Below, piece by piece: positions 4,487 through 53,304 of a DNA stretch of 64,000 bases. The first letter of the stretch is position 1; each line of letters opens with the position of its first letter. The stretch comes from Corythucha ciliata (Eukaryota > Arthropoda > Insecta > Hemiptera > Tingidae). The notes below the pieces were generated by a model. It worked only from the letters and a program-made list of their open reading frames with translations. It was not told where the DNA came from and searched no databases. The stretch covers positions 57,513,952-57,577,951 of the forward strand of contig CM075941.1 in assembly GCA_038030265.1 (NCBI GenBank). The letters are read 5' to 3'. Made by a program: the position numbers and the translations under genes.

Positions 4487-4861
4487 ACCACAAAAAAAAG
4501 TTCTAACCATAAAAACCTGTAACCAAAAACGCATTAACCACAAAAATCGCTTACTGCAAGGAACACTCCACCACAGATAGAAATTTACCACAAAAATACG
4601 CTGATCAAAAAATACTTTAACTACAAAATTCTTTATAACCACAAAATATGCTTCAACCACAAAATGCTCTAACCACAAAATTCTCTAACAACAACATTCT
4701 TGAACCACAAAAACTTGAACACAAAGAGACCAAACGACGCCAGTTGTAACCCCAAAAATACCCTAACCACAAAAAGCTTGAACCACAGAAAGCAGCAAGC
4801 CTAAAATGCACAAATAACAAAACGCTCAGACCACAAAAAGCTCCAACAACCGAAAGTTAGA
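4487..4861. repeat. Degenerate AACCACAAAA short-period repeat
   Basis: The decamer AACCACAAAA and near variants recur about every 15-22 bp, separated by variable words such as ATTCTCT, GCTTG and AGCTC. The array abuts the broken end of the Ty3 integrase at 4862. The same motif in reverse complement (TTTTGTGGTT with GAGCT spacers) occurs at 33,885-33,990. Confidence 0.75.
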
Positions 4862-5778
4862 TTGTCTATTAGAACGAGTAAATGTGAGTTTCTTGTTCGA
4901 CTTTTGTCGAACGGTCCGAGGAAATCGAGATGGATCACTTCAAATGGTCTAGTGCCTGGGGTAATGGGATTAATCGGTCCGGGTTTTTTCCCTCCAGGAA
5001 TTTTCATCAAGGTACACGTGAAACAACTCCTAATGTGAAATTTTACGTACCGTCTCATCTTCGGGAAGTAGTAATTTTCACTCAACATTTTCACAGTTCG
5101 GTCTACTCCGAAGTGTCCGCTTAAATCATGAAAACGCACTACCATGCTTTTTCTATGTGTCTTGGGAACCACAAACTGCCTTCGTGATTTCACCTGTCGA
5201 CAAAGCAGTGCATTATGCATTACATAGTTTGGGGGTATTCGAATGTTTTCGTCGTCTTCTTTTTCGTTGGTTCCTCCTAGTGCTTTTATTATGCGACGTA
5301 ATTCTGGGTCACTGTACTGAATCGCGGCTATGCAGTCAATTTCCTCTAATTCGCTCCCCCTGTCAGAACAAACGTAAATTACTTCTACTCTTTTATCTAA
5401 AATCTCATCCATTGTATCCATGGCTTGTTCAGTTGGTCCTCGACTGAGAGCATCGACGTGACACATCTTAACACCCGATCTGTGTCTGATTTCAACGTCG
5501 TACTGAGAGATTAGTTCACTCCACCTTGCGACCTGAGAGTTTTTGGTGCGATTAGCGGCTAAATAAGTCAAGGCCTGACAATCTGTTACAACAAGGACTT
5601 TAAGGTTTAAGATCAGCGGGCGTAAACGATCTAAACACCAAATTACTGCCATGAGTTCTAATTTACAAGAAGAATACTTACTTTCGGCGTTCGTCGTCTT
5701 CTTGCTCATTACTGAACGGGATGAAGTAACTCGTCGTCTCCTTTTTGTAAGAGAATTCCGGTTAATCCTGAAGCGCAC
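4862..5778 (-). pseudogene. Ty3/Gypsy RNase H end and truncated integrase
   Basis: A minus frame of 325 codons, of which roughly the first 305 look transposon-derived. Early residues carry the C-terminal half of RNase H (ELMAVIWCLDRLRP, TDCQALTYL, VDALSRG). Next comes a complete integrase H2C2 zinc finger (HDLSGHFGVDRTVKML through RSCFTCTLMK), then the first catalytic aspartate of the core (HLDFLGPFDKS). The core breaks off soon after LVLIDNLT, and the remaining codons are the neighbouring repeat. The second Asp and the Glu of the D,D-E triad are absent, so there can be no integrase activity. Confidence 0.85.
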
Positions 5779-5825
5779 GCATCAGTGTGTAATTCTGTGT
5801 AAGCCACAGGATTGAAAATTGTCGG

Positions 5826-7346
5826 TTAATTAGAAGGAATTGGAAGAGGAATTGGAAGGGATTGGAATTGGAAGGTCGGAAAATTGTCGGTCGACAGTAG
5901 GCGAGTCTTCAAATCTTCAAAAGCTATTTTCTGAGATTCTCCCCAGATGAATTCGGATGTTTTGCCCGTCAAATCTGTTAAAGGTTTCGCTATGGTGGAA
6001 AACCTGTGAATAAAACGTCTGAAATAACCGACTAATCCTAGAAAACGGCGAATGTCTCGGGAATTTCGAGGTGTGGGGAAGCTTTCGATTGCCGGAATTT
6101 TTGATTTACCTGGGGTAATTCCATTTTCAGATATTATATACCCTAAATAGTCGACTTGTTTAACTCCTATACGGCACTTCGTTGGGTTCAACGTGATTTG
6201 TCCGTATTGAAGTCGTTCAAACACGAGTCTAAGGCGATATAAAAGATCCTGCCAGTCTTTCGCTGGGAGTAGAATGTTGTCCATGAAACATTGCACCATT
6301 TCCTTTCGCAATGGCCCCATTACAGCGTTCATCATTCGAGTAAAATAGAATGGGGAGTTCATAAGCCCGAAAACCATTCTTGTGTATTGACCGCTATCGT
6401 CTGGAGTGACGAATGTTGTCTTTTCTTGAGCGTCCACTGTTAATGGTACCTGGAAGAAGCCATGGGCTAAGTCGAGTGAAGCGTATACCTTGCTGCCAGC
6501 AAGGGCACTGAGCTGATCTTCGATGTTAGGTAGCGGGTACGGTTGTCTAACTGTCTGTTTGTTGAGAGCTGTAAAATCTACCACCATCCTCGGCTTCCCG
6601 TTTTTTTTTCTCACGATCAAGACTGGACTCGCGTAGGGTGAACTCGTCTCTGTAACAATACCGTGTTGTTTTAGTTCTGCGACTATTTCTCTCAATTCTC
6701 GTCTCTCTTTAGGTGAAGCTCTGTATGGTTTTTTATACACCGGGACACTCCCCGGTTTTTCAACAATATCCATCTGCAACTTGTTTGTACATCCTAGCTG
6801 CGAAATGTTGAAAGCAAACCTATCTTTGTACTCGCCCAGCAAATATTCAAAATCTTTCCGAACTTCATTTGGAACGTCATCATCAATAACTGCCTTCAGC
6901 TGTTCAAATTCTTCTTCAGATTCTTCCTTTATTCCGCTTTCATCGACAGAAGTTTCCAAAACGGTTAGAGTTTCCGACTTCTCAGGACAAGAAATTTGTT
7001 GCTCAGCTTCGTCGTCGCTACAGACGTCTAGGTGTCTGAAAGGCGCGCCAGTTTCATTAAAGAAAGTTAATGTACCTCCTACCTGAAGAAAAGCTGTGCC
7101 GGGAGTCTCCATCCAGCTCCTACCGACAATAACAGGCTTCGGAAGAGCAGCGTCTGGAAGTATTAGTACTTTAACTTTTCTATTTACTCCATCGATTTCG
7201 ACAGGGACCGACAAAGACCCCAAGGATTGAGTGACCGGCTCGATCATGCTTCCAACACCGAAACTGGGGACAGCGCATGTATCTCTCTCCAATCCAAGTT
7301 GTTCTGCGACAGCCTCTCTAATAAGGCATTCACTACTTCCATCCAA
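5826..7346 (-). pseudogene. Ty3/Gypsy protease remnant and reverse transcriptase
   Basis: A 506-codon minus frame. The first ~110 residues resemble a retroviral-type aspartic protease, but the active site reads DGSSE where D-S/T-G is expected. The RT follows, with recognisable steps: SPYASPVLIVRKKNGKPRMV, then DLAHGFFQVPL, then FGLMNSPFYFTRMMN. The catalytic YxDD box reads FMDN, so the second aspartate is lost and this RT should be inactive. The thumb/connection region ends in low-complexity residues encoded by a GGAATT-type microsatellite that breaks the frame before RNase H. Known for the family: RT copies the element's RNA into DNA in a capsid. Inferred: this copy is dead. Confidence 0.85.
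5828..5878. repeat. Short GGAATTGGAA microsatellite inside Ty3 pol
   Basis: Repeats of AATTGGAAG/GGAATTGGAA occupy the point where the RT frame ends. They separate it from the RNase H frame, so expansion of this tract is the likely cause of the frame break. Confidence 0.6.
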
Positions 7347-13038: not shown

Positions 13039-14787
13039 TTAATTGGGATTTGTTGCTCTTTGAATTTGTTTTTCGAGTGCGTAGCGCATTTCCTGCAAGG
13101 GTTCTCTTTTTTCCCCCGTCGAATAGACTATGGAGGTTTGGGTGGGGATTAGGTATGACTGACTTTGGAAAATAGGAAGTTTGTCTGAACTGGCAATGAG
13201 AGATTGGTAGGTAGAGTTTTCGGTGAAACATTCGACTAGTAGGGGGGTAGGTTTGAATCTCCAATATGAGTATGTCAGTACGGTAGAAGTTAATTGGCAG
13301 ATTTTACTAGAAATCTGGGGCGATATTGCCATTGCTTTAAGTGTGAACCTGCGTGTGAGCATCTTTCGTCGAAGTTCTAGGGGAGGTTCTTGTGCTTCGG
13401 CCAGGATAACGTTTGTAGGGGTGCTTTTGAGGTAACCCATACACAATCTTAAACATTTATATTGTAGCCTGTCCAGTGACTGGAGTATTGTCTTACTCGC
13501 TCTGCTATGGAAAATGCAGCCGAAGTCTATAATAGCTCTTACGGTCCATCGATAAAAAGTTAGGCATGTTGATGGCTCCGTTCCCCAATTATTGAAACAG
13601 ATAAGTTTTAAGGCGTTAATGTATTTTTCGGAGGTGTTGATTAAATTGGTTATGTGTGTTGTCCATTTCATTTTTGTGTCTAGATATAGTCCTAGGAATC
13701 GGACACAATTTTTAACAGGGAAACTTTTACCTCCCAATGTTACTTCTTCTCCGAGAGGAATGGACCTTTTTCTCGTAAAGGGGCACACAATAGACTTGTT
13801 CGTAGTTAGGGTCATACCATTGCTCGCAGTCCAAGCTAGTATTTCATGCATAGCATGGTCTAGGATGTCTATACATGTTAACATGTTTTTATGTGTTGTG
13901 TATAGACATATGTCATCGGCATATTGGATTATATTGATCTGGGGATTGGATAGCACCATGAGATCTGCCGTGTATATTGCATAAGGAAGTGTACTAAGAA
14001 TGTCTCCCTGTGGAATTCCCGTACAAGACCTCCTTGGCCCGATGACGTCATTGTTTATTTTAAGAAGTATGATTCTATCTTCGAATAGTTTAATGATGTT
14101 TTTTATGAACTGGGGCGGTAAACCCATGGATGATAATTTGACATATAATAAATTCAGATTCACGTTGTCGTATGCTCCGGCAACGTCGAGGAAGGCAGCA
14201 ACTACTGATCTGTTGGAGGTTAGGGCAAGATCTATGTCAGAGATTAATAGAGTGTGGCAGTCTTGGATTGTCTTTCCTTTCCTAAACCCGAATTGAATGG
14301 ATGGAAGGAGTCCGTTACTTTCGATAAACCACTCTAACCTGTATTTAATCATTCTTTCGAAGGTTTTCAGGATGTATGAAGATAGTGATATGGGCCTGTA
14401 AGAATTCGAATCGTTAGGTGGTTTATGGGGTTTTAAAATGGGAATAACTAAATACTTTTTCCAGTCATCAGGGAAGTTTCCTGTCGCCCAAGCTTTATTG
14501 TATAAATTTAATAATATCGTTTTCGCATTTCCGGGAAGGTGGAAGATCATGGGATAGTGAATGTTGTCTATGCCTGGAGCAGTATTTCTGTTTGATTTTA
14601 AGGCGATGTCCAGTTCTTTCTTCGTGAACGGATGTAGAATTGGGTGATTTTCGGCGTAGGTGGTTTGTATGTCAAAGTTGTGTTCAGGAACGAAAGGGGG
14701 ACAAATTTTGTTGTAAAAATCTTCCGTCCAATCTGTGCATGGAAGAGGAGGGGGTTTATTTTCAGTTTTTCTATCGGGAAAGAACAC
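13039..14787 (-). pseudogene. LINE reverse transcriptase
   Basis: An uninterrupted 582-codon minus frame covering the whole RT. The blocks are recognisable: NSYRPISLSSYILKTFERM, FGFRKGKTIQDCHTL, VAAFLDVAGAYDNVN, GIPQGDILSTLPYAIY, then the catalytic box QYADDICLYTT and VRFLGLYLD. Both catalytic aspartates are kept. It ends in a TAA just before the RNase H motif NYIYTDGS, where full-length relatives read through, so the stop looks like a nonsense mutation. Family role: target-primed reverse transcription at the nicked chromosome. This frame alone cannot mobilise without endonuclease. Confidence 0.9.
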
Positions 14788-18056: not shown

Positions 18057-19133
18057 TTACCTACCCCTTGGCGTATTACGCTGATTTAGCAGAGCTAGAA
18101 ATGGATCAGAGTTGTCGGTAAGGCATTTTTTAAAAAGTAATTTGGCTTCTTGGACATAGCGCTCCGCTAACCCATTTGAACGTGCAAACTCTGGACTTGA
18201 TATTCTGTGTCGAATCTCCCAGGACTTGAGGAAGTTCTTGAACTCACTGCTGGAATATTGGGGACCACCGTCGGAGTTCACTTGGTCCGGGATTCCGAAG
18301 GTTGCAAACCAACACTTCAGGTTCTTGATAACCGCTGAGCTAGTGGTAGATGTTAATTCAACAAAGTCGTAAAATCCAGAGTAGCTGTCTGCTATGATGA
18401 GAAAGTCGCGGTGATTGAGGTTGAAAAGGTCTGTGGCTACTATTTGCCAGGGCCTTTCTGGAATTTCACCTGTGGTAATCTGCTCCATTGGCTTATTTTT
18501 TTGGAGTTTTTGGCAGGTTGGGCAACTTTCCACATAAGATCTGATGTGTTGTGCCATTTTTGGCCAAAATAAATTTTCTCTAGCCAATTTGGTGCAGCCT
18601 TCTATTCCTCTATGACTGCGGTGAATTTCCTTCAGTAGAATTTCCACCATTGTTTGAGGAATGACAATTTGTTCTCCTTTCACGATCAAATTGTTGTAAA
18701 GTCCCAGTTCTTTTCGAAAACTAAAATAAATTTGAACCTGTTCAGGGAGGAGTTTTTTGTCATCCGGCCATCCGTTTAAAATAAAATTTTTAACTTCCTT
18801 CAGCGTCGGATCCTGCACAGTTGCTTCCTCAAGTTGTTCCAAACGCGATTTTGAGAATGGAATGGCAACATGAATAGTTATTTCCGGTGGTTGGTCAAAT
18901 TCAGGCAAATTTTTTATGTCCCTACTGAGTGGGTCAGCGATAAAAAGCTCTTTTCCTTTTTTATAGACCACTGTTGGGTTGTACGGCATTATCTCAAATA
19001 AAATTCGTTGGAGTCGAGCTGGAGCCTTGTGCAGTGGTTTTTTGAAAATATTCTCGAGCGGTTTGTGATCGCTCTCCACTACCAGGTGCGTGTTTCCCCA
19101 GACATGGGAATTGTATTTCTTGCAAGCAACCAA
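18057..19133 (-). pseudogene. Ty3 RNase H end and integrase core
   Basis: A 358-codon minus frame. It begins within RNase H (LVVESDHKPLENIFKKPL, ELFIADPLSRD). The integrase zinc finger follows (HRSHRGIEGCTKLA through ESCPTCQKLQ), then a complete D,D-E core: IVATDLFNLN, VNSDGGPQYSS, and GLAERYVQEAK. All three acidic residues are retained. The frame ends near NTPRGR, and relatives continue in the frame found at 17,985-18,060, so a frameshift lies at about 18,060. The sequence resembles the integrases often annotated as K02A2.6-like in invertebrate genomes. Confidence 0.85.
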
Positions 19134-19169
19134 AATTGCTAAAGCCTCTTTTTCTATCTGGCTGTAGTT

Positions 19170-20090
19170 TCATTCTGATTTGGTGAGTGCCTTTGAGCTG
19201 TAGGCTATGGGTTGACCATTCTGAATTAAACAGGCGCCAACAGAATGTTCACTCGCATCTACGGAGAGAGTGACGGGCTCATTGGGGTTGTAGTGGCGAA
19301 GGACTGGAGCTTTCTTGATTTTTGACAACAGTAAATCAAATGCTGACTGCTGTTCGGGACCCCAGTACCACTCTATCTCTTTATGTAGCAGCTGGCTTAG
19401 AGGCTGAGTCAAATCTGAGAGATTTTGTATGAATTTTGACAGGTATGTAACCATGCCCAAAAATCTTTGAAGTTCATTGACATTCTCAGGTATTTTGAAT
19501 TTTTCCAAACTTGCTACTTTTTCAGGGTCTGCCTCTATTCCTTTTTCAGAAATGACGTGTCCGAGGAAAACCACCTTCGGTGTATTGAAAATACATTTCT
19601 CTGGATTCAGCTTCAGTCCGGCTTTTTTCAGGGTGTTTAGGACATCTTGAGTGATAATTTCCAGTTCTTCTTTGTTTCTTGCATGACAAAGAATATCATC
19701 CATTGCAACTTCCACGCCTTTTTTCCCTCCGAGCAGGGTCGACTTCCACGCCTGGAACACTTCAGGGGCCGAGCTTAAGCCAAACGGGAGTCTGAGAGTG
19801 CGAAATCTTCCCCATGGCGTCGAGAATGTCAAGTAATTTGACGTTCGGCGGGATACTTTTATTTGATAAAATCCTCGAGCGCAGTCTAGTTTGGAATATA
19901 TTTTGGAACCATGAAGATTTGCTGCGACTTCGTCGATTGTCTGCAAGGGGTATTGGCGGCGCTTTATGTTTTTGTTAACGTCTGTAAGGTCTATGCAAAT
20001 TCGAGGTTTTTTATTTTTCCACACGACAACCATGGGAGAAACGGCTGGAGCAGGTTCATTCATAGGCTCTATGATTTTATTTTCGACCAT
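19170..20090 (-). pseudogene. Ty3 reverse transcriptase and RNase H start
   Basis: A 306-codon minus frame starting inside the RT domain (VENKIIEPMNEPAPAVSPMV) and continuing through KLDCARGFYQIKV, RLPFGLSSAPEVF and the catalytic VAMDDILCHA, where both aspartates are kept. RNase H begins with VTLSVDASEHSVGACLI. A TGA at 19,168-19,170 interrupts the line that continues NYSQIEKEALAILVACK in the same frame, so it is a single nonsense change. Only about 15 bp separate the RT from the 5' LTR, showing that gag and protease were deleted. Confidence 0.85.
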
Positions 20091-20563: not shown

Positions 20564-22332
20564 CAGGGCTGGGCAGTAATTGAATTACGTAATTCAATTA
20601 CAATTAGTAATTGGTAATTTGTAATTGAGAACAACACGTCATTGTAATTGATAATTTGTAATTAAAAGTACTTTTTCGAAGTAATTTGTAATTAACAATT
20701 ACCAATTACATTTCCATCTTCAGAGCCAATATTACTTCGAAAACTCTGCGGGTACTATTTCGCGCCTTACTTGGAGCTTTTGGAGGAGTTTTTGCATGAA
20801 ATTCTCTGAAAAAAAAAAGAGTTGCAAAGCAATTATGACACGAGCGATATCCTCGAGCTTAGGGTTGCCAATTTGAAATTTGAGAAAAACGGTACAAAAG
20901 TTTCATCGAAGCCCCAAACCAGTGGCGTAATTAGGAATTTGTCTTGGGGGGGGGGGGAAGGATCAGATTGAAATCTCGTAAGGTCGAAAAGGAGGCGGGT
21001 AATTTCACATTTTAGTCATCATTCCACCCAGCCAGCACACTCTTGAATCTGGACATCTTGCTGGCCTCATCATAGCCTCAATCTCTCAGCTAGGGGCGAT
21101 TTTTGGACTCTATACTCGCAAATTAGCGCTTTTTTGGCCGACGGTATCGTTCTTCTCAATTTGAGCCGCAGATTAACGGTTTTGCCCCACCCACTCCCAT
21201 AGCCATGAATTTGCTCATTTTCTCAACTTTAGCATCAAAGTATCGTTGTTATCCCGTGAGCGATGTTTCTTAATTATCCACGAGTTTTTGCGTTTTCCTC
21301 AATTTTAGCAGCATATATTACCGATTTTTAAATTTGTTTTACCAGGGAATTAGCACTTTTCTCAGTTTCAGCTGGAAATAAAGGTTTTTCTTTAGTGTTT
21401 TCCTCAATATTAGCCGCAAAATAGGGGAACTTTTCACGAATTACGATGTTTTTGTTTCACCATACGGAATGAATGAGCGATTTTCCTCAGTTTACTCGGG
21501 AATTAGCGGTTTCTTCACCTATTGCCACAAATTGTTTTTTTTTTTTTTTTTTAATTTCAGCCTGAAAAGCTGCCTTCAGAATCCGCAAATTGGCGTACAT
21601 TCAGTTTTTGGTGCAAATAAGAATTTTTCTCAATTTCAACCGCGAATTAGCGTTTTTTTTTAAAATTGTAGCGGCGACGTGTCGTGGCGTTTCAAACCTG
21701 TGAATTAGCGAATTTTCTCAATTTCAGTCAAAAATTGGCGTCTGGCGCAATTCCAGCGGTAAATTGGTGATTTTTTCCATTCTTAACCGCGAATTAGCAA
21801 TTTTCTCAATTTTTAGGCTTAAAATTAACCTTTCTCTTAATTTTGAGCAATTTTATAAAACTTATGTAGATGTAGATTGTTGCTTCTTTTCAGTTCTAGC
21901 CGCGAATTAGCGTAATTTTTAACATTGTACTATAGCCATGCATGAATTTGCCATTTTTCTGATTTTAGCCACAAAAATGCCTTTTTTCAAACCAAAAAAT
22001 GTACATCTGTCCATCATTTTCTGTCAAAAAATCATCATTTTTAAATTATAAATTTCACGACACTTAATTCGTGAATTATTGATGTTTCTCAATTTTAAGC
22101 GAATTTTCGCTTTTACTGAATTTTAGCAGCGTGGTAGCATCTCCATGCAACCCGTGCATTATCTACTGAATTTTGTCAATTTTTGCCATGAATCGGCGTA
22201 TGACTCAATTTAAGCTGTAAATTAACGATTTTTCCCATTTTTAACTGAGAATTAGCACTTTTCCCCCAATTTGAACTGAAAATTAACGTTTTTCTTAATA
22301 TTAGCTGCGCTAATTGGTGATTTTTTCAATTC
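20564..22332 (+). repeat. Long dispersed repeat, copy A left part (hAT-like end)
   Basis: It starts with CAGGGCTGGGCAGTAATTG, followed by a GTAATT/AATTAC-rich subterminal zone. After unique-looking sequence and a G-run near 20,946, it becomes the degenerate GCTAATT / TTTTCTCAATTTTAGCC family. The reverse complement of the whole stretch appears at 34,690-36,956. It is interrupted at 22,332 by the Ty3 insertion and resumes at 27,527. No transposase is encoded in either copy. Confidence 0.8.
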
Positions 22333-22926
22333 GGCAACAAGTATAAGATGTATTTGAATAAGCTCTTATATTCGGGATCTTTCGCCGAAAGCTCGCTGTA
22401 CAACCCCCAAATCTACGTCTCCAACATTGTCTCGAGGGTACAGCAGGCTAATCTGGAGATTCCAGAACACGAACTCGTTCAAGTGATCGCCACACACTTC
22501 GATGGACCCATAAAACAAACAGAGATCACGAAAATTGGAACGTTCCTTGAATACTTGGAACGCGTCATGTCTCAAAAAGGAAAAAAGAATCCAGACCAAG
22601 TCGTGGAAAACAGTTTCGCTACAAGCCAAGCTGCGTCAAGATTTTCCGCAGATGTACCCCAATTTCGAAAAACCTATTCGCCCCAATCGCGGAACAAATC
22701 CCATGCTGTACAACAAAGCCAGTGGCGGCCTCAACCACGTGACAGTAATCGGCGCCAAAGTACAAACTCCTTCGATCGACAAAGAAACAGCTTCCAGCGG
22801 TCTCCTCAAATCGCGGAGATTACGACAGAAACGCAACCCGAATCTACGAATAATCGACGCTATAACGATCGCTCGCCGTCCCCTAATGTTTCAAAAAACT
22901 ACTTGCCGAGGGAAGAGCACCACTAA
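22333..22926 (+). CDS. Truncated Gag (C-terminal capsid and basic region)
   Basis: The frame is open from the left junction; the first Met is at 22,348, giving 192 residues. The first ~75 residues (NIVSRVQQANLEIPEHELVQ, GTFLEYLERVM) look like the C-terminal part of a Ty3 capsid domain. The rest is basic and rich in Arg, Ser, Gln and Pro, as expected for a nucleic-acid-binding tail, but it has no CCHC knuckle. The N-terminal half of Gag is missing. The frame overlaps the pol frame by about 40 bp, and the slippery site lies inside that overlap. The Met at 22,348 is probably internal in the original protein. Confidence 0.75.
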   Translation, partial: GNKYKMYLNKLLYSGSFAESSLYNPQIYVSNIVSRVQQANLEIPEHELVQVIATHFDGPIKQTEITKIGTFLEYLERVMSQKGKKNPDQVVENSFATSQAASRFSADVPQFRKTYSPQSRNKSHAVQQSQWRPQPRDSNRRQSTNSFDRQRNSFQRSPQIAEITTETQPESTNNRRYNDRSPSPNVSKNYLPREEHH

Positions 22927-25900
22927 CTGAGAAAGTAGAGGCCACTTCAACTCTCCCCTCATTAATCACCCGCCTCTCAAACAAACGACACGGCTTACAC
23001 ACGATATTCATTCCTCGTGACTTCGGTAAAATATTCCTGGAGCGGTCCTCCCTTGCAACCTCTGAAAATGTAGAGACATGTGCGTTCATTTTAGGTCGCA
23101 AAGCAGATGCTGACTCATTCCACGTGACGTCACTATTTTTTCCTCCTCAAAAGGGAACTTCTAATACATGTGAGGCCCTGGATGAAAGTAGACTTGCTCG
23201 TTACCTTGAACATTCTGGTCTTTCGGTACTTGGATGGGTTCACACGCACCCTACCCAGGAGTGTTTTCTTTCTAGCATTGACCTGCACACGACGTTCGTC
23301 ATTCAATCACTCCTCCCAGAAGCTATTGCAGTCGTGTATTCACCAAAATATGGTCAAGGAGCCGTCTACACATTAACTAGCGACGGACTGTCCGACGTTC
23401 GGGCTTGCCCCCTGTCGGGATTCCACCAGCACGAAACACAAAAACCCCTGTTCAAAGTCGCTCGTCATGCCATTTTTCACCCTGACCTAAAACTTGAGGT
23501 AGTTGACCAAAGGACTACCGGAACAAAGACCGTATCTCCTATACAATATCCCGCTACCAACGCGTGCCTGGCCCACATTTTCGAAGATGGTGACGTTTCA
23601 ATTGACGACGCCGACCTTGTCGATAGGGACCAACAACCCACTCCCCAGTGCCCGTTACTCTCTTGTGCAATAAACGGAATCAAAGCCTTTGCTCTAGTTG
23701 ACTCAGGTTCTCAAGTGACAGCCATAAGCCAGGATTTTTTCGACGTCAACTTGAAAGGAAAAAGAAATTACGAAATCTTGCCGGTACGGGGAGCCACTGT
23801 GAAGACGGCAATTTCAAAGAAGTCCTACCACATAAGATTTCAAATTTTCGCTTCCGTAGTCATCAAAAATGTAGAAACGAAATGTTCATTCTTGGTTATT
23901 CCGCGCCTCAGCCAGGATGTGATTTTCGGCGTCGACAGGCTTCAGGAGTGGGACTGCCTAATAAATTTCAAGGACCGGAGAGTAACTATAAACGTTGAAT
24001 CTCAACCTATACAACTCGACTTCCTTCCCGGAACGGAAAATTCGGAAAATATAGTTGTCTCAACCACTTCACTCAAGTTACGGGACGATGGAGACATCCG
24101 CGACGCCCCTTTTGAGGCAATAGTTGATCAAGCCGTGAATAGCGCACCACCCACCTCGACCGCCGTCTTACGTGAGTTCAAGAATCTACTGTTCCGATAC
24201 AAAGACATTTTTAGTCCGTCCCCCGGCCTAATACGAGGGTACCAGCATAAGATTGTCCTTAACGATCAGACTCCCTTTGCAGCTTTTCAGTATCCCATCA
24301 TGGCTGCCGACGAGCATGAGATCACCAAAGAGATAAGGAAACTACTAGACAACGACATAATTCAACCCTCCCGCAGCCCTTACCTTAACCCCCTGCTCAT
24401 TGTTAAGAAAAAAGATGGCTCTTTAAGACCCCTAATTGATGCTCGCAAGTTGAACTCACGAATCCTTCCCGAAAGAGACGTCCCACTCTCATTTGATAAC
24501 ATAGTAAAGGACGCTGCAAATGTCACCCACATTTCTACGGTTGATCTCAACTCGTCGTTTCACCAAGTGTACCTGCACCCGGACAGCCGACAATACACAG
24601 CGTTCCGGTTCAATGGCCTCGTTTACGAGTACAAGAGGGTCCCATTCGGCTTGAAGACATCAACCGCTGCGCTTGAAAAAGCCCTGCGCCCACTAATCCC
24701 ACCTTCGGTGACACGTAACGTCAAATCGTACGTAGACGACATCGTTATATACTCGCGTTCAGCGAACGAACATTTGACCCACATCACAACGGTTTTCGAA
24801 ATGTGTCGGCGAAACGGAATTACACTCAACTTGAGAAAATGTAACTTTTTCCGAGACCAGCTTCCCGTATTGGGATTCTTATTAACTACCAGAGGAATTC
24901 TGAAAGACCCCTCCAAAGTCCAGGCAATCAGAGAATTTCCAAGACCAGTAAACGTCAAATCCCTCCAATCCTTTCTGGGCCTCACTAACTTTTATGCACG
25001 CTTCGTCCCGAATCTATCAGCCATTGCTGCGCCACTCTACAAATTAACGCGAAAAAAACAACCTTGGGAGTGGACGCCAGAAACCAAGGCATCCTTCCAA
25101 ATGATAAAAGACATCATGGCTCGCAACGTGGAACTCGCCTATCCGGACTACGACCGTCCATTTTACATGGAGACTGATGCAAGCGGCTACGCGACGGCGG
25201 GTATGCTCTACCAGCTTGATGATCACGATAACAAGAGACCTCTGGCTTTTACGAGTAGCAGCCTTACGGCCACCCAAATGAATTACACCGTCACAGAGAA
25301 GGAAATCTTGGCGATCGTCAACTGTTGCAAAAAGTTCTTTTCATATGTAGGTGGCCACCACACGATCGTTCGTACTGATCATCAAGCGATAACATTCATG
25401 TCCATGGTAATGTACCCCTCACCACGCCTCAATAGGTGGTTCCTTTACCTCCAAAACCTGAATCTCACGTTCGAATACATTAAGGGTTCATCGAACGAAA
25501 TCGCTGACGTGCTGAGCCGATACCCTCCCATTTCGTTTAATACGGAAACGCAAAATCGTGAGTTGAAAATTATGGCCGCTGAGACAACAACGAACACTTA
25601 TTTCCAAACCTCACTGCTTAAAAAACTCCCTGCCGCTCAAAGTCGTGACGAAACGTTGCAACGCTTTCGTGAGAAGCGACCAGAAATCTTTAACGAACAT
25701 CGAGGTGTTGTATACCAGAAGTGTCAGGACCGGGATGTTATTTATCTGCCGGATGAACTTTGTCATCACGTCATTCTTTTTGCCCACACTGAACTCCTCC
25801 ATTCAGGAGTGCAGAAATGTCATCACTTCCTGCGGCAAACGTTCGTCACAAAAAAATTCAAAAGTAAAATAAAAAGAGTTATCCGGGCCTGCCGTACGTG

Positions 25901-26783
25901 CCAACTAAGTAAATTTGGAAACCTGAATCTCCAACATTATTCTGGGGCCATCCTGCCAAAGAGCAAGCTCGACCTACTCTCCATTGACCACTTTGGGCCA
26001 TTGCCAACTGCCCGATTTGGCATGCGTTTCGTACTTACTATCATCGATTCACTTACGCGATTCGTTCGACTCGTACCCGTCAAAACCACATCATCTCGGG
26101 AAACTATCAGTAAATTGCGGACTTATTTTAAACTTCATGGAAAACCCAATCGTATCCTGACCGACCACGGGTCATGTTTCACTTCCCGTACGTGGAAAAA
26201 ATTCGTCGAAGAGGACGTCTTGGATCATGTCCTGGTACCATTGAAACGGCCGAATGCCAACATGGCTGAAAGAGTCCACCGGGACCTAGTTACGTACTTG
26301 CGTGTGACAGTGGCCGCTAAACAATCCAAGTGGTGCGAGATGTTGAATCGGATCGAATTCACAATGAATACGACCTACCACTCAGCCATAAGGTGCACGC
26401 CCCACGAAGCGTGGTACGGGTCTCCGCCTAAGCAGCCTTGGTCAAAACTTATGGCCTGTGACGACACCAACGTTAAACTTTCTCGAGAGGAATTGGACCG
26501 TTACCTAGTGGAACTGCAACGCGAAAAAACAGAAGCTCTCAAAACCACCAACGAGCGAAAACGTGTGCACAGTTATAGGATTGGTGAGCAGGTCTTGGTA
26601 CGATACCACCCCAATAGCTCAAAACTGCACAAGCGAAGCGCGAAATTGATGCCCATCTTTCAAGGACCTCGCAAAATTACAAAAAGAATAGGCAAGAGCA
26701 CGTACGTAATTTCACTACCAAACTCGTCCCGTCACTCCATTTATCACACGTCCTCCATAAAACCGTATTTTTCACCAAATTAA
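22887..26783 (+). CDS. Pol polyprotein: AMSH-like JAMM deubiquitinase, protease, RT, RNase H, integrase
   Basis: Open for about 1,298 codons after the stop at 22,884; expression presumably by -1 frameshift from gag. Residues ~34-210 form an AMSH/STAMBP-type MPN+ domain: FIPRDFGKIFLERS, the catalytic Glu in VETCAFILGRK (23,073), then GWVHTHPTQECFLSSIDLH with H-x-H-x7-S-x2-D intact (23,241-23,282). The second AMSH zinc ligands follow (His in DLHT, then C-x5-H-x-H in ACPLSGFHQHE). AMSH enzymes cleave Lys63-linked ubiquitin. Protease follows (ALVDSGSQVTA), then RT with SYVDDIVIYS, RNase H (METDASGYA, TDHQAITFM), the integrase zinc finger (HSGVQKCHHFL, CRTCQLSK), and the D,D-E core (SIDHFGPLP, ILTDHGSCF, MAERVHRDL). 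The end, FQGPRKITKRIG through IYHTSSIKPYF, is GPY/F-like. All active-site residues look intact. Confidence 0.9.
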   Translation, partial: CFKKLLAEGRAPLTEKVEATSTLPSLITRLSNKRHGLHTIFIPRDFGKIFLERSSLATSENVETCAFILGRKADADSFHVTSLFFPPQKGTSNTCEALDESRLARYLEHSGLSVLGWVHTHPTQECFLSSIDLHTTFVIQSLLPEAIAVVYSPKYGQGAVYTLTSDGLSDVRACPLSGFHQHETQKPLFKVARHAIFHPDLKLEVVDQRTTGTKTVSPIQYPATNACLAHIFEDGDVSIDDADLVDRDQQPTPQCPLLSCAINGIKAFALVDSGSQVTAISQDFFDVNLKGKRNYEILPVRGATVKTAISKKSYHIRFQIFASVVIKNVETKCSFLVIPRLSQDVIFGVDRLQEWDCLINFKDRRVTINVESQPIQLDFLPGTENSENIVVSTTSLKLRDDGDIRDAPFEAIVDQAVNSAPPTSTAVLREFKNLLFRYKDIFSPSPGLIRGYQHKIVLNDQTPFAAFQYPIMAADEHEITKEIRKLLDNDIIQPSRSPYLNPLLIVKKKDGSLRPLIDARKLNSRILPERDVPLSFDNIVKDAANVTHISTVDLNSSFHQVYLHPDSRQYTAFRFNGLVYEYKRVPFGLKTSTAALEKALRPLIPPSVTRNVKSYVDDIVIYSRSANEHLTHITTVFEMCRRNGITLNLRKCNFFRDQLPVLGFLLTTRGILKDPSKVQAIREFPRPVNVKSLQSFLGLTNFYARFVPNLSAIAAPLYKLTRKKQPWEWTPETKASFQMIKDIMARNVELAYPDYDRPFYMETDASGYATAGMLYQLDDHDNKRPLAFTSSSLTATQMNYTVTEKEILAIVNCCKKFFSYVGGHHTIVRTDHQAITFMSMVMYPSPRLNRWFLYLQNLNLTFEYIKGSSNEIADVLSRYPPISFNTETQNRELKIMAAETTTNTYFQTSLLKKLPAAQSRDETLQRFREKRPEIFNEHRGVVYQKCQDRDVIYLPDELCHHVILFAHTELLHSGVQKCHHFLRQTFVTKKFKSKIKRVIRACRTCQLSKFGNLNLQHYSGAILPKSKLDLLSIDHFGPLPTARFGMRFVLTIIDSLTRFVRLVPVKTTSSRETISKLRTYFKLHGKPNRILTDHGSCFTSRTWKKFVEEDVLDHVLVPLKRPNANMAERVHRDLVTYLRVTVAAKQSKWCEMLNRIEFTMNTTYHSAIRCTPHEAWYGSPPKQPWSKLMACDDTNVKLSREELDRYLVELQREKTEALKTTNERKRVHSYRIGEQVLVRYHPNSSKLHKRSAKLMPIFQGPRKITKRIGKSTYVISLPNSSRHSIYHTSSIKPYFSPN
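22893..22899 (+). promoter_or_regulatory. Candidate -1 ribosomal frameshift site A AAA AAC
   Basis: In the gag frame the codons read TCA AAA AAC, so the heptamer A AAA AAC is correctly phased (X XXY YYZ). Gag occupies the frame of 22,348 and pol the frame of 22,887, a -1 relation, and the pol frame has no stop after 22,886. The gag stop lies 27 bp downstream. I did not find an obvious strong stem just 3', so the stimulator is unproven. Confidence 0.7.
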
Positions 26784-26835
26784 AAAAAAAAAGCTATTTA
26801 TGTGTTTTTTTTTTTTTTGTTATTTTTTTTAATTA

Positions 26836-26846
26836 AGGGGAAGGGT
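26836..26846 (+). other. Polypurine tract of the AMSH-bearing element
   Basis: AAGGGGAAGGG lies about 55 bp after the pol stop, following A- and T-runs, and just before the proposed LTR start. This position is as expected for plus-strand priming. Confidence 0.6.
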
Positions 26847-26849
26847 AAT

Positions 26850-27526
26850 TGTGATCAACCAAATCCTATTTGGATAATAATAATATATTAAAAATTATAT
26901 AAAGAGTAACCGTAGTAACGTTAATATTACAAAACTAATAATATAACAGAACCGGGTCCGATGACGTGTGCAAAACGACAAATATTGGTAGATAGTAGGT
27001 TTGCTGAAGGGACATGTCGAGACAGGTTGTGTAGAGCCGTAGATTAGAGCCGTAGCGACTTCGAGCTTGTCGAGAGACGGTGACATAAAGCATAAAAAAG
27101 TCGTAAGGTAAATAATTTAGACACCAATTTGTAACGGTATAACACCGTCTTTTGTATAATACCTAATAAGATATGTCCCGTAGACTTTTTTTGTCCCCTC
27201 TTCCTCTGTTGCTCGCCTGCCACGTCGTCGACGGACGCATCCTGGTCGACTGCTTTTCTTCCGTCCCGTCGCCAGCAACCGGAGGCCTGTAGAGCGAACC
27301 ACGACCGTATAAATAGTACGTACGACTTAGAGATTAGCCCACCGGTGGTTTAGACGTAAGACTCCCCCTCGTACAATATTGTGACCCATCAAATACATTA
27401 ATTCATAACAAGAAACATTCAGAATCGTTATCCTTGCCTGATTCACCGCGTAGAAACGGGCGTCCCGCGGCAACTCCACTTGAGACGGGGTCACTTGCCG
27501 CCGGTGGAAAATGAGAAAAGACCTCA
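26850..27526 (+). repeat. Probable 3' LTR of the AMSH-bearing element
   Basis: About 677 bp from TGTGATCAACC to GACCTCA, bounded by the polypurine tract on the left and by resumption of the host repeat on the right. It holds a TATA box, TATAAATA, at 27,308-27,315, which would place the U3/R boundary near 27,340. There is no 5' copy in the window, so the LTR identity rests on position, TG...CA ends and the TATA box. Confidence 0.6.
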
Positions 27527-27777
27527 GCCGCGAATTAGTGGTTTTGTTCATTTTGTATCCGCGAATTAACGTTTTTCCATAACTCTATATCTGCAAATTG
27601 CAAATTAACGATTTTTCCCAATTTCAGTGTGAAATAGCGTTTTGTGCTAATTTTGCGTCCATTCAGCATCCTATTCCCTTTTTCATACTCAAATGGGCGA
27701 TTTTACGCCATTTCAGTTGTAAATTTGCCATTTTTGGCCAATTTTAACCTGAAAGCGTCTTTTATTTGTCAATATTC
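27527..27777 (+). repeat. Dispersed repeat copy A, right part
   Basis: Continues the repeat after the Ty3 insertion. It matches the reverse complement of 34,440-34,690 closely, including the non-periodic words CATCCTATTCCCTTTTTCATA and GCGTCTTTTATTTGTCAATATT. Homology stops after 27,777, which may be one end of the repeat or a rearrangement point. Confidence 0.75.
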
Positions 27778-34319: not shown

Positions 34320-36956
34320 TGCAACTTCCAGACTAAAATTAAGAAAAAAATCGCTGATTCGCGGTACATGGAGGCCATTCTACGAATAAATTGTGGAAAT
34401 CCACGCAAAAGTGTTATATTTGGGCAAGCCAATATTGACAAATAAAAGACGCTTTCAGGTTAAAATTGGACAAAAATGGCAAATTCACAACTGAAATGGC
34501 GTAAAATCGCCCATTCGCGTATGAAAAAGGGAATAGGATGGCCGCAAAATTAGCACAAAACGCTATTTCACAGCTGAAATTGGGAAAAATCGCTAATTGG
34601 CAATTTGCAGATATAAATTTATGAAAAAACGTTAATTCACGGATACAAAATGAAGAAAATCACTAATTCGCTGCAAAATTTGAAAAAGTCACCAATTAGC
34701 GCAGCTAAAATTAAGAAAAACTTTAATTTTCAGTTCAAATTGTGGAAAAGTGTTAATTCTCAGTTGAAAATGGAAAAAATTGCTAATTTTCAGCTTAAAT
34801 TGAGTCAAACGCCAATTCTTGGCAAAAATTGACAAAACTCGGTAGGTAATGCACGGGTTGGGGACGCTACCACGCTGCTAAAATTTAGAAAAAGCGAAAA
34901 TTCGCAGCTAAAATTGTGAAACATCACTAATTCTCTTCTTCTAATTAAGTGTCTTGAAATTTATAATTTAAAATTATGATTTTTTGACAGAAATGGATGG
35001 GTAGATGTAAATTTTTTGGTTTGAAAAAAAATTTACATTTGTAATTTAAATTCGCACCTTCTGAAGGCATTTTTGTGGCTAAAATTCAGAAAAATGGCAT
35101 TTTTATATGGCTATAGTACAATGTTAAAAAATACGCTAATTCACAGCTAGAACTGAAAAGAAGCAATAATCTATACCTATAAAAGTTATACAGGGTGTTA
35201 CGGGAAAATGGGGCATAGTTGAAATGGGTGATTCTACATCACACGTGGGTCCAAAACGACTATATGGACCATGGTCCGAATATTAACCGTTTCCGAGAAA
35301 AAGTTTTCTGATTGTCAATGCATTAGGCGTTTTTTTTCGAAACTCGGTCGGTATCTTAGCAACCATTGATCCTGGGGAAATTTCAAGGACACCGCTGGAA
35401 AGAGCACAAAATTTTTCTTCAAGATAATTGTAAAGTTGAGGTGGTTCGTGAAATTTGGACACCCTTAACGCTCGGCTGAATAGCCGCTTCCTTGAATTTC
35501 TCTATTCTTACTTGTCATTCAGCCAGCTGCCATTTTACTGACAGCTCTCGGACGAAGATGTTAAACGTTAAAAAATACGCTAATTCACGGGTAGAAGTGA
35601 AAAGAAGCAATAATCTATACCTATAAAAGTTATATATTTTTGCTAATGCGGTGGTAAAACGTGAAAACCGCTAATTTGCGGGTAATATTTAGAAAATGAA
35701 AAAATCAGCCTGGTAAAAATAAGAAAAAGGTTAATTTTAAGCCTAAAAATTGAGAAAATTACTAATTTGCGGCTAAAAATGGAAAAAATCGCCAATTTAC
35801 AGCTGGAATTGCGTCAAACGCAAATTTGTGACTGAAATTGAGAAAATTCGCTAATTCACAGGTTTGAAACGCTACGACGCGCCGCCGCTACAATTAAAAA
35901 AAAAACGCTGATTCGCGGTTGAAATTGAGAAAAATTCTTATTTGCACCAAAAACTGAATACACGCCAATTTGCGGATTCTGAAGGCAAGTTTTCAGGCTG
36001 AAATTGAAAAAAGATGCCAATTTGTGGCAATAGGTGAAGAAACCGCTAATTCGCGAGTAAACAGAAAAATTGCTCATGCATTGCGTATGGTGGACCGTGA
36101 AAAGTCCCCCTATTTTGCGGATAATATTGAGGAAAACACTTAAGAAAAACGTAAATTTCCAGCTGAAACTGAGAAAAGTGCTAATCCCCTGGTAAAAAAA
36201 TTCAAAAATCGGTAATATGCTGCTAAAAATTGAGGAAAACGCCAAAACTCATGGATAATTAAGAAACATCGATCACGGGATAAAAACGATACTTTGCTGC
36301 TAAAGTTGAGAAAATGCGCAAATCCATGGCCATGGGAGGGGGTGGGGCAAAACCGCTAATCTGCGGCTGAAATTGAGAAGAACGATACACTCGGCCAAAA
36401 TTGAGAAAATCGCTAATTTGCGGGTAGAGTCCAAAAATCGCCCTTAACTGAGAGATTGAGGCTATGATGAGGCCAGCAACTCCGGCAAGATGTCCAGAGA
36501 GTGTTCTGGCTGGGTGGAATGATGACTAAAATATGAAATTACCCCTCCTCTCACCCTTACGAGATTTCAATCTGACCCCCCCCCCCCAGGACAAATTCCT
36601 ACCTACGCCACTGGTTTGGGGTTTGAAACTTTTGTACTGTTTTTCTCAAATTTCAAATTGGCAACCCTAAGCTCGAGGATATCGCTCGTGTCATAATTGC
36701 TTTGAAACACTTATTTTTCAGAGAATTTCATGCAAAAACTCCTCCAAAAGCTCCAAGTAAGGCGCGAAATAGTACCCGCTGAGTTTTCGAAGTAATATTG
36801 GCTCTGAAGATGGAAATGTAAAAAATTGGTAATTGTTACTTCGAAAAAGTGCTTTTAATTACAAATTACCAATTACAATGGCGTGTTGTTATCAACTACA
36901 AATTACCAATTACTAATTGTAATTGAATTACGTAATTCAATTACTGCCCAGCCCTG
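34320..36956 (-). repeat. Long dispersed repeat, copy B (uninterrupted by Ty3)
   Basis: Reverse complement of copy A. The end CAGCCCTG at 36,956 corresponds to 20,564, and 34,440-34,690 corresponds to 27,527-27,777. The body is the degenerate AATTGAGAAAA / CGCTAATTCGCGGCTAA family. It retains the pre-insertion site of the Ty3 element at about 34,680-34,700 and has its own 376-bp insertion at 35,191-35,566. Confidence 0.8.
35123..35634. repeat. 376-bp insertion flanked by 68-bp direct repeats
   Basis: 35,123-35,190 and 35,567-35,634 are direct copies (about 5 mismatches in 68). They flank 376 bp that start CAGGGTGTTACGGGAAAATG and are absent from copy A near 21,840-21,920. No open frame of note lies inside. 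The start resembles the CAGGGTGT words often seen at arthropod repeat ends. Confidence 0.65.
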
Positions 36957-44799: not shown

Positions 44800-46524
44800 C
44801 TAGTCCAGGATCCCCTTCCCTCTGACGAGGTTTAGGAGGTCCTCGGCTAGAGTTTCGCCGGTTGGAGCACCCTCGAGTTGGTCGGCCCCGAAGATGCTAA
44901 GCCGGCGGCCCGCGAGCGCCTCACATTCGAACACGATGTGATGGGCGGTCTCGTCTTCTTCCCCACACAGTCTGCACACCGGGGACTCTGTGATTACCCC
45001 GATGCGGTGTAGATGATAACGGAGCTGGCAGAATCCTGTGATAAGGCCTACCACCGTTCTAAGGTCTCTCCGGCTAAGTCGGAGCAGTTTGCTCGTAAGC
45101 CTCCTGCACGGTCCTTCGACCATGCGCTTGCTCTGCTGATGTCCCTCCAGTCTCTGCCAGCGAATAGCCGCCTGGGCATTAACCCACTTAGCTATCGCCA
45201 TCCTGAAGGTCGATGGCGGGACGCCGAGTGCCGGCTCCGGGCCAGTGAAGTCTCCATTCGAGCCCTCCCTGGCCAAGGAGTCCGCCTGCTCGTTCCCGTA
45301 GATACCCTTGTGTCCCGGTACCCATTCAAGGCTTACCTTGTTATCCTGGGCCAGCAGACTAAGGCTTTGGCGGCAGTCCCATACAAGCCCGGAGCTCACT
45401 ATCGGAGCCGTTAGTGCCTTAATGGCAGCCTGGCTATCCGTGAGGATACGTATATGGGCATTTTGCACGTCCCTACGTATATTCTCAGCAGCACAGGCCT
45501 TGATTGCGTAGACTTCGGCTTGGAATACCGAGGTGTATACCACCAGAGGTGTAGACAGCCTCCATTCGGGTTCCACCCCGTACACCCCCGCACCAGTCCC
45601 GTTATTCGTTTTAGAGCCGTCTGTAAACCACAATCGCTCCTTGTGATTTCTTTTCACTGCCTGCCCCTCACCGTACCCAAGGCGGACGGAGAAGGGACAG
45701 CGTTCACCGAGGGTTTTGGGCATGATGTCCGGCATCATGCCCAGCACTGGGTCTCGAACCGTGTCCAGGATCCCAGTGTGGGCCCTCCTAGAATTAAGGC
45801 CCCCACCCCTCCATAAACCACCCCATTTATGCCTTAGGGCCGACATTGCCGCCGCCCCCTTGATGAAGATGTCTACGGGAGGGAGTCCCGTCAGTATCTC
45901 CATCGTTGCAGTAGGAGTGGAGTGCATAGCCGCAGTGACCATTAGGCACGCCAGTCTCTGAACACTAGTGAGGGTATTTCTGGCCCCCACTTGTTCCGCT
46001 TTGTGCCACCAGACCACTGAGCAGTATGTCAGTGCGGGTCTGACTATCGCCGTATATAGCCATAAGACCATTTGCGGCCTCAGTCCCCACGTTTTGCCGC
46101 AGGCACTTTTCGTCCTCATAAGCAGCATTTTGCCCCTGTCGGCAACCCTGCCCAGGTGCTTGCTCCAGGTGAGCGTGGAGTCCAGGGTTACCCCCAGATA
46201 CTTCACTTCCCTCCGAAGAGATAGCCTCGTATCGTAGAACAGGGGTTCTTTAAAGTCCCCCAAATTCCTCTTTCTAGTGAAGGCCACTAGGTTGGTCTTG
46301 TCAGGGTTTACATTCAGCCCTTCCTTCCCACACCAGTCCTTCACTATATTCAATGCTGACTGAGTCAAGTCCGACACCACCCCGACATGTCGCCCTCTAA
46401 TGACGACGACAATGTCGTCCGCGTATCCCTGGACATAAAACCCATTATCAGCCAGCCGCACCAATAAGGAATTGGCCACCATGCCCCACATTCGGGGTGA
46501 CAAACCCCCCCCCCCTGTGGGCAT
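44800..46524 (-). pseudogene. LINE RT (catalytic half), RNase H and C-terminal tail
   Basis: A 574-codon open frame starting in the GLSPRMWGM block of the RT. The catalytic box YADDIVVVI is intact, followed by VKYLGVTLDSTLTWSKHLG. The RNase H acidic residues are all present: FTDGSKTNN, FQAEVYAIKAC, ILTDSQAAIKAL, and WVPGHKGIYGNEQADSLA. The end has CRLCGEEDETAHHIVFEC, the C-x2-C-x7-H-x4-C tail. Downstream of the frame break this half is undamaged. RNase H would remove RNA from the hybrid during insertion. Confidence 0.9.
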
Positions 46525-47356
46525 CCCTTCTTTACAGCCACCTCAGGGATTCCCCAAGGAGCGTGGCGGTAACTGTTCTGCTTTCAAGCAGCACCCTCAA
46601 CCACCTACTAATGGTGTCGCAGATGCCATGCCGTCCTGCAGCTTCAATAACCGAGGATATAGAGGTATTGTCAAAGGCACCCTCTATGTCCAGGAAGATT
46701 CCCACCGCTAGTTCCTTGTGCTCTAGAGTATCCTCCAGCCTAGTAACCAGCTGGTGTAGTGCCGTTTCGCAGGACTTTCCCTGCTGGTAGGCAAATTGAC
46801 CTGGGTGTAGTGGCCTCGAAGGGAGGCAGCTTTCCCAGATATGCCTATCCACCAGTTTTTCCAACGTCTTCAAAACGAAAGACGTTAGACATATGGGTCG
46901 GTACGCCTTAGCCAGTGCATATGACGGACGCCCCGGCTTAGGAATAAACACAACCCGTGCTTTCCGCCACACCTCAGGGATTCTGCCCATTGCCAGGCAA
47001 GCCCTGAAGATGCAGCACAGTCGTCTGGCAACCTCTGGCCCCCCCTCCTGCAGGTGTTTGGGGATTATGCCGTCCGGTCCAGGAGCTTTGAAGGGAGAAA
47101 ACGAGCCAATGGCCCATTGTACCCTTCCCAATGTGACCACCTCCCTAGCCACATGCCAGTCCACCCTTGTCGCCCTCCTTCGCGAGGGCTCCACGGGTGA
47201 AATGGACGATACAACCCCCACGGCCCCCGGAAAGTGCACCCCCATCAGGGTCGTCAACGTTTCCGACGCCGTCGAAGTGTAACTACCGTCCACTTTCATC
47301 AGTGTGCCAACGGGATTCAGCGGGTCCTTGGAGAGAAGGCGCTGAAGGCGAGCCAC
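46525..47356 (-). pseudogene. LINE RT N-terminal half
   Basis: A 274-codon minus frame: SPFKAPGPDGIIPKHLQ, AYRPICLTSFVLKTLEKLVD, FAYQQGKSCETALHQLVTRL, and VGIFLDIEGAFDNTS. It leaves frame within GESLRWL, whereas relatives continue with a GCPQGG motif. That motif is encoded in another frame across an expanded G-run (C-run at 46,505-46,515 on the plus strand). At least one or two indels therefore separate the halves. Confidence 0.85.
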
Positions 47357-53292: not shown

Positions 53293-53304
53293 CGTTAGAA
53301 AGTA

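Follow-up and report, generated by a model that had tools for sequence, protein, structure and literature searches.

Why should the pol gene of a retrotransposon open with a deubiquitinase domain? The question is raised by a Ty3/Gypsy element in a 64,000-nucleotide stretch of the Corythucha ciliata genome (assembly GCA_038030265.1, contig CM075941.1, positions 57,513,952 to 57,577,951 of the forward strand; the whole stretch is called the window, and positions are counted from its first letter). The 1298-residue pol open reading frame of this element (22887..26783, plus strand, as are all its features) encodes, ahead of protease (PR), reverse transcriptase (RT), RNase H and integrase (IN), a JAMM metalloprotease domain of the type found in the cellular deubiquitinase AMSH. 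We give an even chance to the explanation that a Ty3 lineage captured this domain, has kept it and uses it to deubiquitinate its own particle or ribonucleoprotein (RNP). What carries this answer, in sequence and structural model, is the identity of the domain, its predicted fold and metal ligands, its retention over several families, the recent transposition of its carriers and an in-phase slippery site in front of it.

A preliminary description of the locus, made from the sequence alone, proposed an MPN+ domain with AMSH-specific second-zinc ligands in a frame that runs without a stop into the rest of pol, and every residue that it named could be located. The frame is bounded by a TAA at 22884-22886 and a stop at 26781-26783. 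Pfam matches JAB over residues 57-145 (E 1.7e-12 for an N-terminal piece, 1.2e-11 for the whole protein), and the same frame then matches gag-asp protease, RVT_1, RNase H, integrase zinc finger, rve and SH3_Tf2-1. A phmmer search of PDB sequences places AMSH-LP, AMSH and Sst2 on top (E 9e-35, residues 35-209), the best chain outside the AMSH group being Rpn11 (E 2e-10). Identity to AMSH, AMSH-LP and Sst2 is 36-40%, with a root-mean-square deviation of 1.0-1.5 Å for the predicted model; by both sequence and predicted fold the domain lies closer to these three than to the other MPN proteins compared (Rpn11, CSN5 and Prp8 by sequence, Rpn11 and Prp8 by model; BRCC36 was not among the matches listed). 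The description's span of 22887-23515 runs from the start of the frame to the end of the domain, while the domain proper, as delimited by Pfam, phmmer, predicted fold and ligands, occupies about 22986-23522 (residues 34-212).

The E-xn-HxH-x7-S-x2-D motif is complete, with the general base E63 in VETCA (23073..23075) and the catalytic zinc motif H119-x-H121-x7-S129-x2-D132 at 23241..23282 (codons starting at 23241, 23247, 23271 and 23280). Also complete is the pattern of the second zinc site, a His behind the DL of the motif (H134, 23286..23288) and C-x5-H-x-H in Ins-2 (C174, F179, H180 and H182, 23406..23432; C174 at 23406, H180 at 23424, H182 at 23430). We take H134, C174, H180 and H182 to be the second-zinc ligands. 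F179 falls at the place of Sst2 F403, a residue named in PDB titles whose numbering was matched by hand. In AMSH-LP the Ins-2 zinc is non-catalytic, and Ins-2 with its zinc is said to set Lys63 specificity (PMC9313428). Neither Ulp1 (PF02902) nor OTU (PF02338) was matched in the Ty3 frames scanned.

Is the fusion peculiar to this copy? In the C. ciliata genome (400.9 Mb) JAB matched 39 times, and these matches include three frames of 1298 residues, five of 1348 and three of 1289. We examined twenty 9-kb stretches and eight shorter ones from it (L006 and L007, which coincide with L020 and L021, were counted once). Four families share the order JAMM-PR-RT-RNaseH-IN: family A (the window copy, L009 and L010), family B (L011-L015, with L019 broken and L022 and L028 partial), family C (L016-L018, with L023 internally deleted) and family D (L020, with L021 partial). 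Pfam confirms the domain order in B, C and D, the frame of D breaking before an adjoining integrase. Further lineages have the JAMM before PR or RT (L002, L003, L005 and L027), L025 and L026 are decayed, and L024 consists of a JAMM only. Among nine lineages the JAMM domains are 31-64% identical.

The distribution of the domain follows RT relationship. Searching the genome with the window RT gave 135 matches from 6090 first candidates, and upstream JAB matches were counted for the 70 of these with at least 43% identity, in identity bins (including the line at 52%) that were drawn after the data had been seen. Pfam JAB lies upstream on the same strand in 21 of 28 near-full RTs that are 52-100% identical to that of the window, and in 0 of 28 at 43-51%. 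Of the seven JAB-negative RTs in the upper group, each examined over some 2.5 kb, four had a JAMM by tblastn (L029, L030, L033 and L034) and L031 had a C-terminal remnant only, bringing the group to 25 of 28 plus one remnant; five RTs of the lower group, read as controls, had protease in 5/5 and JAMM in 0/5. The simplest reading of this pattern is a single acquisition near the base of the clade. L035 and L036 do not fit it: both have PR and no detectable JAMM within 2.5 kb, and with RT identities of 53 and 52% they are the least similar of the upper group, so that they may reflect either loss of the JAMM or an origin slightly inside the clade.

A separate locus, L043 (C7:55789500-55790500, about 307-849), encodes an AMSH-type JAMM in a 231-residue frame with its ligands kept; no RT match lies nearby in the RT list, and the nearest of seven queries is family B at 49%. 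From its sequence, L043 would be a solo, or possibly a domesticated, JAMM copy.

How would the domain be made? In the window copy the pol frame is -1 relative to the remaining C-terminal piece of gag (22333..22926, open reading frame from the first ATG at 22348). The only slippery heptamer in the overlap, A_AAA_AAC at 22893..22899, is in gag phase, begins 6 bases into the pol frame and has the right phase for -1 slippage into the JAMM/pol frame; at window density the chance expectation in the overlap is about 0.006 for this exact heptamer and 0.11 for any in-phase slippery heptamer. The heptamer was sought in 14 distinct loci having both gag and pol frames (L002, L003 and L021-L028 were left out), and in-phase A_AAA_AAC with pol in the -1 frame occurs in 13 of them and in 5/5 families tested, the sole miss being L019, where the gag/pol overlap is absent. 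The JAMM starts roughly 30-50 residues behind the heptamer. Because it stands just behind an in-phase -1 slippery site in 13/14 loci, it should be made as Gag-JAMM-Pol. A weak candidate stimulatory stem lies 8 nt behind the heptamer (22908..22960), its fold of -17.7 kcal/mol not being significant (z -1.0; 33 of 200 shuffles equally good). The window gag piece has no Pfam match; L010 has a longer version of 334 residues and L011 a related gag of 570 residues, and a CCHC pattern is absent from the four related gags checked.

Copies carrying the domain bear the marks of recent movement. Perfect 4-bp target site duplications flank 8/8 elements tested in families B and C (L012 and L010, whose extracted stretches cut the 5' long terminal repeat (LTR), were left out, and L023 was added). 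The LTR pairs of the same eight are at least 99.3% identical with gap columns excluded: 951/951, 952/953, 1029/1032, 1036/1038, 1038/1039, 1049/1049 and 980/981, and 431/434 for an eighth pair whose 3' LTR is shortened. By these marks, JAMM-carrying copies have transposed recently. The added element, L023 (C7:6615000-6624000), is a family C copy that retains both LTRs and the 4-bp duplication around an internal deletion. In family A, L009 and L010 are two further copies, with 98.4-99.5% identity over the aligned stretches.

A similar domain stands at the front of proteins of another kind. Searching 5.8 billion proteins with the window JAMM gave a single match of suitable length, P0003, and the P0003 domain as query returned P0003-P0010 together with ten proteins that we read as cellular AMSH type. 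P0003-P0010 (source 'ena', other assemblies) have an N-terminal AMSH JAMM, partial in P0009 and P0010, with ligands kept at all positions present in 8/8 proteins; behind it come an RT with a YxDD motif in 7/8 and, by a strict pattern, a GIY-YIG-like motif in 4/8. Relative to P0003 the JAMM and RT parts are alike in identity (for example 72/66, 63/67, 56/58 and 54/57%), and the linker is 8-25% identical, the domain limits being hand-set. Canonical Penelope-like elements (PLEs) combine RT and GIY-YIG in one open reading frame (PMC11167929), and from these motifs and that architecture we read P0003-P0010 as PLEs. Their RT and GIY-YIG parts matched nothing in Pfam (P0003 and P0006), in NCBIfam (P0003) or, as a five-row profile, in PDB; an AlphaFold2 model of a PLE-type protein was too poor for use (predicted local distance difference test score, pLDDT, 43.6). 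We know of no PLE that forms a capsid or Gag particle.

We propose that, close to the base of the clade, a Ty3/Gypsy lineage gained the catalytic part of a Lys63-type enzyme of the AMSH family (STAMBP/AMSH-LP) in a single event or nearly so, and that the domain, lying behind the gag/pol frameshift site and ahead of the protease, has been under purifying selection since. Frameshifting by -1 would yield Gag-JAMM-PR-RT-RH-IN, which Gag would pack into the particle. There the JAMM would be an active deubiquitinase preferring Lys63 chains, a specificity that we infer because Ins-2 with its zinc is kept, despite a His-for-Phe change in family C described below. It would act in cis on ubiquitinated proteins of the element (Gag, RT/IN or the RNP), leaving the host without the ubiquitin by which selective autophagy or turnover would take up the particle or RNP. 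Selective autophagy is our first candidate for the pathway that would be avoided, by analogy with other elements: autophagy receptors restrain L1 and Alu retrotransposition, and Ty1 particles are taken up via Atg19 (PMC4982230). Since a similar JAMM occurs in PLE-type proteins, which lack a known Gag particle, action would fall at a shared RNP or RT stage rather than at budding. The wider idea, that an AMSH-type Lys63 deubiquitinase is a recurrent retrotransposon strategy, arisen at least twice (in Ty3 and in PLE) and erasing a general host marking of RNPs in cis, we put forward tentatively, as having somewhat less than an even chance.

The domain might instead be aimed outward, as a counter-defence removing Lys63 chains from signalling complexes of innate immunity or the DNA-damage response in the vicinity of the particle or the integration site. 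Lys63 chains do serve proteasome-independent signalling (PMC9313428), a related DNA-repair idea has been proposed for the OTU and Ulp1 domains of Ginger transposons (PMC2836005), and the JAMM travels with an integrase in Ty3 and with RT and endonuclease-like motifs in the PLE-type proteins. However, an enzyme that is made by -1 frameshifting in sub-Gag amounts and packed in cis, as we suppose it to be on both counts, would be poorly placed for cell-wide action; moreover, no separate JAMM product is evident, there being no stop before PR, although PR could still release one. We regard an outward role as unlikely.

Another possibility is that catalysis no longer matters and that the JAMM serves Gag-Pol in a structural or regulatory way, for example as a spacer or as a module that binds ubiquitin or RNA. 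Three observations point this way, and they also count against the explanation that we favour. One copy, L015, carries D132G even though its LTRs are identical over 951 bp; the domain may thus be dispensable for one round, or be complemented, or the mutation may be new. All four family C copies (L016, L017, L018 and L023) have the F179H change, His for Phe at the Sst2 F403 position, which could alter chain preference. Catalytic residues are not kept in excess of other conserved ones (9/9 versus 26/32 other host-conserved positions, p 0.31). The favoured explanation has further points against it: synonymous sites between families are saturated (0.77-0.84 in the JAMM), within-family copies are too alike for a ratio of nonsynonymous to synonymous rates (dN/dS), ratios are high where the copies compared are decayed or closely similar (0.70-0.81 for L024-L026, 1.11 for L011-L028), and in pairs that include family C the divergence of integrase is similar to that of the JAMM.

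Against a purely structural role, 20 of the 21 Ty3 copies in which all nine catalytic and zinc-ligand positions are readable retain every one of them, L015 being the sole exception, as do 8/8 PLE-type proteins at the positions present, even though JAMM identity among the nine lineages is only 31-64%. Near-identical copies are among the 21, so that the independent lineages are fewer; L024, L026 and L027 are broken behind the first motif. Between families A-D identity is 35-44% in the JAMM, 30-38% in the protease and only 7-25% in the stretch 381-430, and the proportion of nonsynonymous differences (pN) is 0.38-0.46 in the JAMM, 0.42-0.47 in PR, 0.59-0.73 in 381-430 and 0.26-0.32 in RT. The ratio pN/pS, pS being the synonymous proportion, is 0.48-0.58 for the JAMM, versus 0.94-0.95 in two codon-shuffled JAMM pairs. 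We therefore hold loss of any catalytic relevance to be improbable. The slippery site in 13/14 loci and the ligands in 20/21 copies bear out the earlier proposal that a Ty3 element acquired an AMSH-class domain and lays it out as a predicted enzyme borne on Gag-Pol.

Family identity might also suggest that the JAMM steers ESCRT-dependent endosomal sorting or particle budding, as its cellular counterpart does: AMSH works with STAM and ESCRT (PMC9313428). This idea, also raised in the preliminary description, has lost ground. Neither the pol frames tested, from families A-D, nor the gag frames tested, from A and B, gave a USP8_dimer/MIT domain (PF08969), whereas the same search found it in two of three cellular AMSH-type controls (P0011 and P0012, not P0014). 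Because USP8_dimer/MIT was not found, the domain is, on its sequence, the AMSH catalytic domain rather than full AMSH. The STAM-binding pattern that was sought is absent, yet it is equally absent from all ten host control rows. In six family B and C elements the 178-655 nt between pol and the 3' LTR hold no frame of more than 70 residues, and thus no env there, and the same domain occurs in PLE-type proteins, a class not known for a capsid. A role in sorting or budding strikes us as very improbable. As for a functionless one-off chimera, or an assembly artefact at 22.9-23.7 kb, the protein collection did give no other Ty3 with a JAMM, its single match being of PLE type, and 120 listed pol relatives lack a precomputed PF01398, but such a case was looked for in this genome and the opposite was found, three copies sharing the same JAMM and further families on other contigs keeping the same order in a multi-family, multi-copy and recent clade, which refutes it for this genome and leaves it practically no weight.

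Where did the domain come from? A first tree grouped Ty3 and PLE JAMMs with support of 66/65, falling to 48/28 without long rows. In a larger tree with one row per family (L028, a near copy of L011, was dropped, and L027 was cut to 110 residues), the PLE-type JAMMs form one branch (100/99) placed with hosts, and 8/9 Ty3 JAMMs stand apart (93/99). The ninth, that of L005 (C7:26809409), sits on a long branch among the host AMSHs, which counts against a single capture; L005 may have had its domain replaced or have captured a second one. Approximately unbiased (AU) tests rejected none of the groupings tried (p 0.354 for Ty3 with PLE, 0.203 for the nine Ty3 JAMMs, 0.167 for Ty3 with animal AMSH, 0.344 for all three). 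The comparison with host AMSH that the preliminary description had proposed thus keeps most of the Ty3 JAMMs together and leaves every tested grouping standing; as for the source lineage, the trees establish neither a shared nor an independent capture with the PLE type. Shared residues were tried as a case for a common Ty3/PLE origin and rejected: a first count was striking (12 in the window, 2-6 in hosts), and the excess was gone under a divergence-aware control (10/20 in the window versus 68/152 in pooled hosts, p 0.42).

A host AMSH gene was not found in the C. ciliata genome among the loci read (L001, L004, L008 and L041-L045). By motif L001 is CSN5 and L004 and L008 are Rpn11; L041, L042 and L045 gave no AMSH match, and L044 is a decayed JAMM. 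Among the 120 Ty3 pol relatives listed, of 911 in the protein collection, the nearest show about 35% identity and none has a precomputed PF01398, many of the frames starting at the protease, which hides upstream domains in another frame. No relative was found in the viral contigs scanned.

A captured host enzyme between frameshift site and protease has a parallel in the dUTPase of the betaretrovirus pro frame, a nucleotide enzyme in vertebrate retroviruses. The clade described here belongs to Ty3/Gypsy by its PR-RT-RNase H-IN order, its LTRs with short target site duplications (in families B and C) and an upstream gag in -1 relation. The JAMM of the window copy resembles AMSH, AMSH-LP (STAMBP, STAMBPL1) and Schizosaccharomyces pombe Sst2 in Ins-1, Ins-2, general base and both zinc sites; unlike cellular AMSH, it sits in a retrotransposon pol behind a frameshift site, with no USP8_dimer/MIT found. 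The PLE-type proteins share an AMSH JAMM with kept ligands at the front of an RT protein and differ in belonging, as judged from motifs, to another retroelement class with a YxDD RT and a C-terminal GIY-YIG-like motif. Among non-LTR retrotransposons, NeSL and Utopia also carry a protease for ubiquitin-like modifiers at the polyprotein N terminus (PMC4640811), there an Ulp1-class cysteine protease, whereas the present enzyme is a zinc metalloprotease and its carrier an LTR element. OTU or Ulp1 deubiquitinase or deSUMOylase domains occur in Ginger1, Mutator and Helitron elements, for which a possible involvement of the ubiquitin pathway in transposition has been suggested (PMC2836005); these are DNA transposons with cysteine proteases. 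Bdelloid LTR retrotransposons bear a DEDDy exonuclease or GDSL esterase in ORF3, on diverse retroelement types and in some cases held to have been exchanged (PMC5408684); there the open reading frame is separate and the enzymes are others, and the main text of that report does not mention JAB, MPN, AMSH or ubiquitin.

No JAMM metalloprotease in an LTR retrotransposon or PLE was found in the open-licence literature among the matches listed. Ulp1 and OTU cysteine proteases in transposons are already known. A Lys63-type deubiquitinase in the Gag-Pol of an active Ty3 clade, if that is what it is, would make it testable whether and how ubiquitin restricts retrotransposons, and the same domain in an apparent second retroelement class offers a comparison that could separate particle-specific from RNP-level roles. 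If the strategy is indeed recurrent, Lys63-ubiquitin marking of retrotransposon RNPs would be a general host restriction.

The window copy itself, delimited by blastn of the window against itself with the junctions read, spans 22330..27526; its 5' truncation point lies inside gag. It interrupts a repeat, of which an uninterrupted copy lies inverted at 34431-35029: 21982-22329 and 27530-27776 match a single inverted stretch with 8 bases between them. Behind the JAMM its pol encodes an aspartyl protease (DSGS; residues about 250-371, 23634..23999), RT (RVT_1; 506-664, 24402..24878), RNase H (729-857, 25071..25457), an integrase zinc finger and core (rve; 955-1113, 25749..26225) and an SH3_Tf2-1-like C-terminal domain (1233-1294, 26583..26768). 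The sole LTR is the 3' one (26850..27526, 677 bp, TG...CA), 98.4-98.5% identical to 3' stretches of L009 and L010. The final 269 bp of this LTR are also found on the 5' side of L010, at the start of the extracted stretch.

No second JAMM was found within the window, and Rfam had no match there. A long inverted repeat holds the Ty3 insert (20564-22329 and 34680-36956; 87-89% identity in the two longest pieces). Other Ty3 pol remnants, 20-32% identical to the JAMM-carrying pol, lie on the minus strand at 18057-20090, 4801-7346 and 60512-62016, and large frames judged by eye to be non-LTR-RT- or RNase H-like occur, also on the minus strand, at 13039-14787, 44800-47356 and 52573-53880.

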